Shown piece after piece: positions 54,341-63,136 of a stretch of 64,000 nucleotides of DNA; the first letter of the stretch is position 1, and every line of letters begins with the position of its first letter. The translations under genes and the position numbers were made by a program. Source of the stretch: Albula goreensis. Taxonomy: Eukaryota > Chordata > Actinopteri > Albuliformes > Albulidae. The notes under the pieces are model-generated. The model was not told the DNA's origin and did no database searches. It worked only from the letters and a program-made list of their open reading frames with translations. The stretch covers positions 17,368,128-17,432,127 of the forward strand of contig CM040758.1 in assembly GCA_022829145.1 (NCBI GenBank). Reading direction: 5' to 3'.

Positions 54341-54365
54341 TACCCGAAACATGGCGGAGACCGTG
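54340..54365 (+). promoter_or_regulatory. YY1-like site overlapping the start codon
   Basis: The sequence aaacatggcgga around the ATG at 54351 matches the AAnATGGCGGC-type YY1 element often found at start codons of CpG-promoter genes. The preceding 100 bases are comparatively CpG-rich and TATA-less. Confidence 0.4.
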
Positions 54366-55369
54366 CGCTCACTCTTTGACTACCGGGAGCCTCCGACGCT
54401 GGACAGCGACGGAGAAGGAAGCAAACCGCCACCGCCGCGAGGGTGAGGGAGATAGAAGTGCCGGGCAATGGGCATCTTTCTGTGTATGTTTATGACTGTC
54501 ACCAAGTGTAAAAAGTGTTTGCATTAACAGAGATGTGGACACAGGTTACTAACAAATATGTTTGTTGCATGAATTAAATATTCGTTTTCCTTTGCTCTTT
54601 AACAACCATCATATTTTTTATGACATCGCGTGTCAACCTTCAGTTAGCCTGCAACCGTACACATAGATACCTACCAAGCTAGCTTAATATGATACTGTGT
54701 TTTGTAGCCACAGCTGGCTGTGCTTTATAGTTTACCAGGTAGCCAGTACTTTTTGCACTGCAAATAGAAAAGTAGGTAACGATTGCAGGCTAGCAAACTA
54801 AAGTCATGGATTTATGCAACTGTAATTAGCTGCACTGTCTCTTCTGCTGTGCGTGATCAGGGGATTGTGTGTGTGTGCGAGCGAGGGGGAGAGAGCGTGA
54901 GAGAAAGAAACGGGTTAAGAGTGTGTGTGCGAGGGGGAGGAAGGGAGAGAACGAGTGTATGCGTGACAGAGACAGACACAGTATGTGTGTGTGTGTGTGT
55001 GTGTGCGTGCGAGCGAGCGAAAAAGTGTGTGTGTGTGTGTGTGTGTGTGTGACAAAGGGAGAGCAGGAGTGTGTGAGAGGGAGGGGAGGGTGTGTGTGCG
55101 TGCATGTGAGAGAGAGAATGGGAGGGGGAGTGTGTATGTGAGAGAGAGTAGGGGAGGGGGCCTGTGTGTGTGTGTGAGCGCGCGCGCTTGCATGTGTGCG
55201 TGTGAGTGCACGAGAGCAAGAGGTGTGTGTGTGTGTGTGAGGGAGGGAGAGAGTGTGTGCATACGTGTGTGACAGAGAGGGGAGGGTGTGTGTGTGTTTG
55301 AGAGAAGGGAGGGGAGTGTGTTTGGAAAGGACAAATATGTGTGTGTGCCTGTCACAGAGCAGGCATACT

Positions 55370-55417
<48 letters not shown>

Positions 55418-62767: not shown

Positions 62768-62811
<44 letters not shown>

Positions 62812-63136
62812 AGGGGTAATGGTTCTGTGTGTATGTGTGTGTGCTGACTGGCTGACTGTGGGTGTGGTCTCCCCAGGGAAGCGTGGGGTGTTGAAGCGGC
62901 CCTGGTCAGAGGCTGAGCGTGCTGCGGTAGAGGCCCATCTGACCCGGAACATCATGGAGCTTCGCGTACCGGCCAAGGCCGACTGCGAGCGCTGTCTGCA
63001 GCTCTGCCCCCTGCTGGTCTCTAACCGTCGCGACTGGAGGGCCATCAAGTTCTACTGCCACAACCGCATCCAGCTGCTGAAGAAGAGAGGAAGGAGGGAG
63101 AGTCTGAGCCCTGGGGAGGCCCCGCCCACATGCTGA
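54351..63136 (+). CDS. SET-fragment / zinc-finger / Crypton-like recombinase / Myb-like gene
   Basis: Nine coding exons: 54351-54442, 58517-58623, 58924-59008, 59094-59289, 59494-59562, 59881-60905, 61097-61920, 62305-62517 and 62877-63136. They total 2871 nt, giving 956 aa and a TGA stop; every junction is GT-AG and in phase. Domain order: acidic/basic N-terminus; C-terminal half of a SET domain (about 110-160); Ser-rich and acidic linker; AT-hook (PRGPGRPP, about 258-265); CCHH finger (about 322-342); SPRKSP-type repeats; tyrosine-recombinase-like domain (about 525-800); acidic Ser linker; Myb-like domain (about 875-940). The finger plus recombinase plus Myb-like order matches, from memory, a family of fish Crypton-like transposon proteins, so the gene looks domesticated. 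Chromatin or DNA binding in the nucleus is the likely role; this is inference. Confidence 0.8.
54868..57135. repeat. 2.3-kb GT/GA-rich simple-repeat block in intron 1
   Basis: Almost the whole stretch is G, T and A on the plus strand: (GT)n runs alternating with gagagagag and ggagggag purine runs. Cytosine is very rare on this strand. The long His/Thr/Ser-rich frames on the minus strand are artefacts of this composition. Confidence 0.95.
57815..58045 (-). pseudogene. antisense 28S rRNA fragment
   Basis: The minus strand reads agggataactggcttgtggt, ccaagcgttaatagcgaagt, gctttttgatccttcgatgt, gattgttcacccactaatag, ggaacgtgagctgg and ggttagttttaccctactga. These are landmark segments, in order, of the 3' part of large-subunit rRNA, near the peptidyl-transferase centre. 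Scattered differences from the vertebrate sequence show decay. It is an isolated piece inside intron 1 of the recombinase-like gene, opposite to its transcript. Confidence 0.85.
58924..59562 (+). CDS. SET-domain C-terminal part (exons 3-5)
   Basis: Exon 3 gives [20 protein letters not shown]; exon 4 gives [20 protein letters not shown] and [20 protein letters not shown]; exon 5 gives [22 protein letters not shown]..., a strand pair, RDI..GEEIT.DY correspond to the last third of a SET domain (motif ELTxDY, with the Tyr of the active site). The first part of a SET domain, including the cofactor-binding GxG and the NH of the NHxC motif, is not found, so methyltransferase activity is doubtful. 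Confidence 0.65.
59881..60905 (+). CDS. AT-hook, zinc finger and SPRKSP repeat exon
   Basis: Exon 6 of the recombinase-like gene. In order: a Ser-rich stretch, an acidic run ([13 protein letters not shown]), a basic cluster (RRRKKRK), PRGPGRPP as an AT-hook core, an Asn/Ile repeat ([10 protein letters not shown]), the finger [20 protein letters not shown] followed by a further His, a Pro/His-rich linker, and three tandem copies of [16 protein letters not shown] sequence. It ends in a Lys/Glu-rich segment. It is GC-rich and unusually long compared with its neighbours. Confidence 0.8.
61097..61920 (+). CDS. Crypton-like tyrosine-recombinase domain exon
   Basis: Exon 7. [16 protein letters not shown] corresponds to the 'fNkRR.gE.skl.le.y' box carrying the first catalytic Arg in Crypton-like recombinases. 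[20 protein letters not shown] then [10 protein letters not shown] matches 'N.YlFa......LRG.D.lr..A...G'; [19 protein letters not shown] matches 'LtsTkLRkhiAT.sQ.l'. The last part, [20 protein letters not shown] then [12 protein letters not shown], matches '..ak.skll...e.g....kGksLdei'. The 'GH...H..fY' box expected in between, with the catalytic His and Tyr, is replaced by [16 protein letters not shown], so recombinase activity is probably lost. Family comparison is from memory. Confidence 0.65.
61935..61985 (+). repeat. (GGGGCT)n G-run next to a splice donor
   Basis: About six copies of gggctg/ggggct start some 15 bases after the donor of exon 7 (GT at 61921). The block could form a G-quadruplex in DNA or in the pre-mRNA; G-runs close to donors are known splicing enhancers. 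Confidence 0.8.
62769..62808. repeat. (GT)n microsatellite in the last intron
   Basis: Twenty uninterrupted GT units about 70 bases upstream of the final acceptor. Confidence 0.95.
62877..63136 (+). CDS. Myb-like C-terminal domain exon
   Basis: Exon 9, with acceptor tctccccag. It encodes [37 protein letters not shown], then [20 protein letters not shown] and a basic tail, ending PPTC and TGA. PWS..E..AV..HL...I.......K.dCe.C......L..R.W..iK.Y..NRI is the C-terminal pattern I associate with fish Crypton-like proteins; the two spaced Trp residues resemble a Myb/SANT fold. Confidence 0.7.

Follow-up and report, generated by a model that had tools for sequence, protein, structure and literature searches.

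A conserved, duplicated gene model in Albula goreensis joining a SET domain to a predicted, degenerate tyrosine recombinase

A first-pass annotation of the 64,000-nucleotide stretch C18:17368128-17432127 of the 932-Mb Albula goreensis genome (the whole stretch is called the window here) placed at positions 54351-63136 an apparent host gene in which part of a SET domain is followed by a mobile-element recombinase. The locus raises the question of whether these parts belong to one gene, where each came from, and what the resulting protein could do. Feature positions are those of the window, on the plus strand unless stated otherwise. Our reading, to which we assign a probability of about 60%, is that this is a conserved host gene, probably for a nuclear protein that binds DNA or chromatin, in which a SET exon was spliced onto a mobile-element-like gene encoding a zinc finger, a tyrosine recombinase and a helix-turn-helix (HTH) domain.

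Nine exons with AG/GT inner borders give 2871 nt, that is, a predicted protein of 956 residues and a stop codon. The same genome contains a second copy at C23:8.175-8.186 Mb (the C23 copy), and because this copy keeps 9/9 exons with the same phases, the gene model is not a product of chance; the nine in-phase exons and 956 residues of the first-pass annotation are borne out. Six of the nine exons have the same length in both copies; the remaining three show differences of 51, 9 and 6 nt. The two proteins are 77.4% identical over 917 aligned codons, and the ratio of nonsynonymous to synonymous substitution rates (dN/dS, Nei-Gojobori) is 0.169 overall, with dS about 0.9; by part, it is 0.045 for exons 1-5, 0.231 for exon 6, 0.104 for exon 7, 0.585 for exon 8 and 0.134 for exon 9. 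Two diverged copies thus preserve the open frame of the model, at an overall dN/dS far under 1. Judged from the exon joint, the phases and these low ratios, the join of SET and recombinase appears to be held by selection in two old gene copies, as expected of the single selected gene first proposed.

Exon 1 (54351-54442) starts with ATG, encodes residues 1-31 and has a C23 counterpart identical in length and phase; exons 2 (58517-58623) and 3 (58924-59008) and the short bridging exon 5 (59494-59562) are supported by the gene model and by comparison with that copy. Exon 4 (59094-59289) encodes the C-terminal half of the SET domain, as indicated by the Pfam match and by alignment to KMT2B. The Pfam SET match lies at residues 39-150 (E 2.4e-7, 31.6 bits, cut-off 22.4), and the SET of the C23 copy scores 35 bits. 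The annotation had seen only a C-terminal part of the domain; the profile match confirms SET, but it spans positions 12-104 of 105, so that the domain may be a degenerate whole SET, while solved SET chains align only from about residue 101 onward. The motif GEEITVDY (59236-59259) is present. The NHSC cofactor/active-site motif is not kept: LYPPPPNC (59143-59166) stands opposite INHSCEPNC in the alignment, and the C23 copy reads LYAPPANC.

Exon 6 (59881-60905) encodes an acidic, serine-rich stretch, a basic stretch, a zinc finger and a proline/serine-rich linker. The AT-hook reported earlier exists as PRGPGRPP at residues 258-265, but it reads PRTPSRP in the C23 copy and is hence weak. The single CCHH finger was recognised correctly; it has the form C-x2-C-x9-H-x3-H (residues 323-341, 60298-60354), matches Pfam ROS_MUCR below threshold (E 0.0056) and can be aligned in relatives. 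For exon 7 (61097-61920, residues 525-800), an AlphaFold2 model with a predicted local distance difference test score of 77.9 and a predicted template-modelling score of 0.77 matches the fold of XerH, XerD and topoisomerase IB. In the recombinase motif alignment the catalytic Arg, Lys and Arg are retained as R584 in box I (NRRRECE, 61263-61283), K642 in GKRGR (61443-61457) and R717 in box II (61653-61676). The box II His is replaced by T714, a position that is Thr in 6/6 aligned rows, and in box III and the nucleophile region (61764-61802) K751 and A760 occupy the His and nucleophilic Tyr positions. The predicted protein would thus contain a degenerate tyrosine-recombinase catalytic domain that keeps the basic triad and lacks both His and Tyr, in agreement with the inactive-looking fold anticipated for these residues. 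Neither of the outcomes that the annotation had named as fatal to it occurred: exon 7 does resemble tyrosine recombinases in its predicted fold, and the joint of the SET exons with exons 6-9 persists in both copies.

Exon 8 (62305-62517) is a fast-evolving linker (48.5% identity between the copies), and exon 9 (62877-63136), again supported by the gene model and the C23 copy, carries the C-terminal HTH and the stop codon. Its predicted three-helix homeodomain/Myb-like domain (residues 877-940, 62894-63085) is the one initially labelled Myb-like; the model is closest to homeodomains, at a level under that proving family membership, and no Pfam family matches at E up to 1. Taken singly, exons 7 and 9 have no Pfam match. 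In PDB sequences nothing meaningful matched the exon-7 protein, the profile of our recombinase alignment (A2) or an exon-9 profile, although the first row for the last of these (E 0.79) names a Myb-family protein.

The SET part resembles different methyltransferases depending on what is compared. In PDB sequence searches the best match is KMT2B (E 2e-4), together with H3K4 methyltransferase chains, and KMT5A (SETD8) follows at E 0.41. The start of exon 4 splits a Cys codon (TG/C) in phase 2, an intron place shared with two kmt5a loci of this genome (C25:2.79 and C4:47.11 Mb, KMT5A matches E 3e-38 and 1e-35) and absent at 2/2 KMT2-like loci, in a comparison that covered these two SET subfamilies. 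Exon 4 ends in phase 0, ten residues past DY, in both the window gene and the C23 copy, whereas the reading frame of the two kmt5a genes continues six codons beyond that point to a stop. We infer that a kmt5a-like gene acquired a splice donor shortly ahead of its stop codon.

Relatives of the finger/recombinase/HTH part, whole or partial, are found on C23, C136, C13, C16, C116, C1 and C18, so that the domain order which the annotation had ascribed to fish Crypton-like proteins does recur in this genome, although the Crypton label itself is unsupported. At C23:3.63-3.64 Mb a SET domain (Pfam E 3.7e-23, exons joined by hand) is followed, about 8 kb downstream, by a finger/recombinase frame of 737 aa. 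Its SET exon matches KMT5A best (E 1e-11) and also starts inside a Cys codon (TG/T). There is a GT ten residues past DY at this locus, but the donor (CAG/GTTTGT) is weak and the frame stops by itself 14 residues past DY; on both grounds we do not take this locus as evidence of a SET/recombinase fusion through the same donor. At C1:43.75 Mb (43.7488-43.7548) a SET exon precedes, by about 0.6 kb, a finger/recombinase region broken by stops. A SET exon similar to that at C23:3.63 Mb, with an internal stop and the same phase-2 start, occurs at C1:32.106 Mb. Copies of the C23 unit (C23:3.626-3.646 Mb) occur on C13, C1 and C8, with 86 to 97% likeness across the main aligned pieces. The 3' end common to these three copies lies at a (TG)n run, their flanks are unrelated and their homology begins at varying 5' points; to judge from these sequences they behave as dispersed elements would. 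A stretch of about 275 aa between finger and core in the relatives has left no trace in the window gene. The HTH exon is repeated at C23:3.6427-3.6453 Mb, once intact and twice more with a stop. A relative at C18:26.555-26.564 Mb, with finger and HTH, has another N-terminal stretch in front of these domains, so that the unit may have been combined with further N-termini as well.

A broader history can be proposed tentatively, and we consider it more probably wrong than right. There would have been an ancient SET/tyrosine-recombinase fusion family, with a recombinase lineage outside the described Cryptons, in which a kmt5a-like terminal exon acquired a donor six codons short of its stop and came to be spliced to a mobile recombinase gene lying downstream. 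The branch at C23:3.63 Mb would keep a fuller SET and the Tyr, and the branch of the window gene would no longer have either catalytic centre or the middle stretch, having become a DNA-reading chromatin regulator kept in duplicate. We lowered our estimate for this scenario somewhat because the weak donor and the separate SET stop at C23:3.63 Mb weigh against it.

Several points count against reading the window gene as a fusion of a kmt5a-type SET exon with a recombinase gene. The sequence of its SET is nearer to KMT2B and its intron position is that of kmt5a, so that the two kinds of evidence conflict. For some relatives tblastn found no convincing SET in the stretches searched (at best E 0.007, with an internal stop, at C13:1.84 Mb, and E 4.7 on C136), and the fusion itself is a predicted one, at the level of the gene model. 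The last two points would suit a SET remnant lying beside a separate recombinase-derived gene, the two being merged by the gene model. Such a merger is nevertheless the least probable of the alternatives, as the C23 copy preserves both halves, the exon 5 that bridges them and every phase, intron 5 spans 318 bp here and 93 bp in the C23 copy, and dN/dS of exons 1-5 is below that of each of exons 6, 7, 8 and 9. Moreover, a hexamer search found no AATAAA or ATTAAA from exon 2 to position 63694, hence none separating the halves; the first beyond exon 2 is the AATAAA at 63694-63699, 558 nt past the stop codon, and intron 1 contains five such hexamers at 57687-58164 and one more near its start. If the gene is accepted as one, its SET half could still be an active methyltransferase, targeted like SETMAR, for which the retained GEEITVDY core and the strong constraint on exons 1-5 could be cited. 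With the NHSC motif gone in both copies, we judge such activity very improbable.

The source of the recombinase part is less clear-cut. The first-pass annotation had called it Crypton-like and had pointed to KCTD1, QRICH1 and ZMYM genes as other host genes derived from Cryptons. On that view a Crypton-derived (DUF3504) gene of their kind would have been joined to a SET gene. Seven proteins, four of them containing the core, had no DUF3504 match with an E threshold of 1, and the eight members of alignment A2 had none with a threshold of 5, HMMER's filters discarding most matches above E 0.1. The genome holds at least 20 DUF3504 matches, none of which, among the matches listed, is at these loci, and hhalign against two DUF3504 proteins of the genome was not significant (E 0.41). 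The description of animal Cryptons by Kojima and Jurka (PMC3212892) gives them no C-terminal domain, in contrast to the three-helix domain of exon 9, and has all human DUF3504 genes losing the second Arg, which the window gene keeps. What the window gene shares with the DUF3504 genes described there (KCTD1, KIAA1958, QRICH1 and ZMYM2-4) is derivation from a tyrosine recombinase in a vertebrate and domestication without the nucleophilic Tyr (PMC3212892); it differs from them also in the SET, finger and HTH around its core. We rejected the Crypton label and regard this origin as unlikely.

An origin from a DIRS/Ngaro-like retrotransposon recombinase is doubtful too, if slightly less so. We compared the core by hhalign with five recombinases of the genome that we take to be DIRS/Ngaro-like from their HSFR..W..Y motif. 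Box I, box II and the Tyr box fall in register, and Phage_integrase matches two of the eight A2 members (best E 0.0011, the one with a known score being under the family cut-off); the alignment itself is not significant, its E of 0.39 being no better than that for DUF3504. Searches among viruses gave 47 pattern matches in a viral_contigs scan, none confirmed, and only weak rows in a viral fold library, none at E 0.001, the best named being recombinases and topoisomerases. Three PHROGs families of unknown function matched at E 0.043 to 0.093, and a near-mode search of phage DNA with 301 bases, which is of little worth, found no match.

Returning to the fused host gene that we prefer, its protein is probably used for DNA binding and not for cutting or methylating, because both enzyme domains are degenerate while selection keeps them joined in two copies. 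A SET exon with a kmt5a-type 5' intron position would have become spliced onto the exons of a finger/recombinase/HTH gene. Finger and HTH would read DNA, the recombinase core would grip the backbone, without cutting it, through the basic residues that it still has, and the SET part may be a scaffold that binds proteins or histones or mediates dimerisation. By analogy with transposase-aimed SETMAR and the phage repressor MrpR, such a protein could regulate transcription or chromatin.

The neighborhood bears on how the two copies arose. Upstream of the gene lies a CNTF-family gene (50341-51563; Pfam CNTF E 2.7e-5, 24.1 bits, cut-off 22.7) which has a partner upstream of the C23 copy, in the same order and on the same strand. 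The two genes form a duplicated block, which rests on these two only, since the CCCH gene further upstream in the window has no match on C23; the teleost whole-genome duplication is the likely cause. The CCCH zinc-finger exon is at 40724-41479 (minus strand, E 1.3e-7); a further, partial match lies 2-3 kb from it. A long open frame downstream of the C23 copy, at 7025-7750 of stretch L007 (minus strand), looks like a PRY-SPRY domain. Elsewhere in the window are a DDE_3 transposase frame fragment (29371-29820, E 7.6e-10) and a Thr/Ser-rich, mucin-like frame (9250-10344, minus strand) with a sub-threshold SEA match (E 0.0061).

Fusion of SET with a domesticated recombination enzyme is as such already known, and what is new here is that the enzyme is a tyrosine recombinase. 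Table 1 of a survey of 58 zebrafish SET genes has no row for such a fusion gene (PMC2200798), and no SET/tyrosine-recombinase fusion appeared in titles or abstract openings among the matches listed in a literature search outside which most subscription journals lie; an existing annotation may list the gene under a different name or as an uncharacterised protein. If our reading is true, it adds a domesticated tyrosine-recombinase lineage to the DUF3504 genes, and a donor just before a kmt5a-type stop offers a concrete, testable route to such fusions. Among phage proteins, the window gene can be compared with the recombinase-fold regulators MrpR/YopR and SroF, MrpR being a case in which this fold can act as a repressor (as described in PMC10516654). 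The well-known counterpart is SETMAR (Metnase) of primates, where SET is likewise followed in one host protein by a mobile-element recombination enzyme, the Hsmar1 transposase, which according to the accounts in PMC6326780 and PMC8994322 can aim the SET protein at element remnants. The window gene differs from SETMAR in having a tyrosine-recombinase fold in place of a mariner transposase, an additional finger and HTH, and a SET without NHSC, and its fusion is probably older, given two copies at dS of about 0.9. As an older case with another enzyme class it would, if true, indicate that the joining of chromatin modifiers to recombinases recurs.
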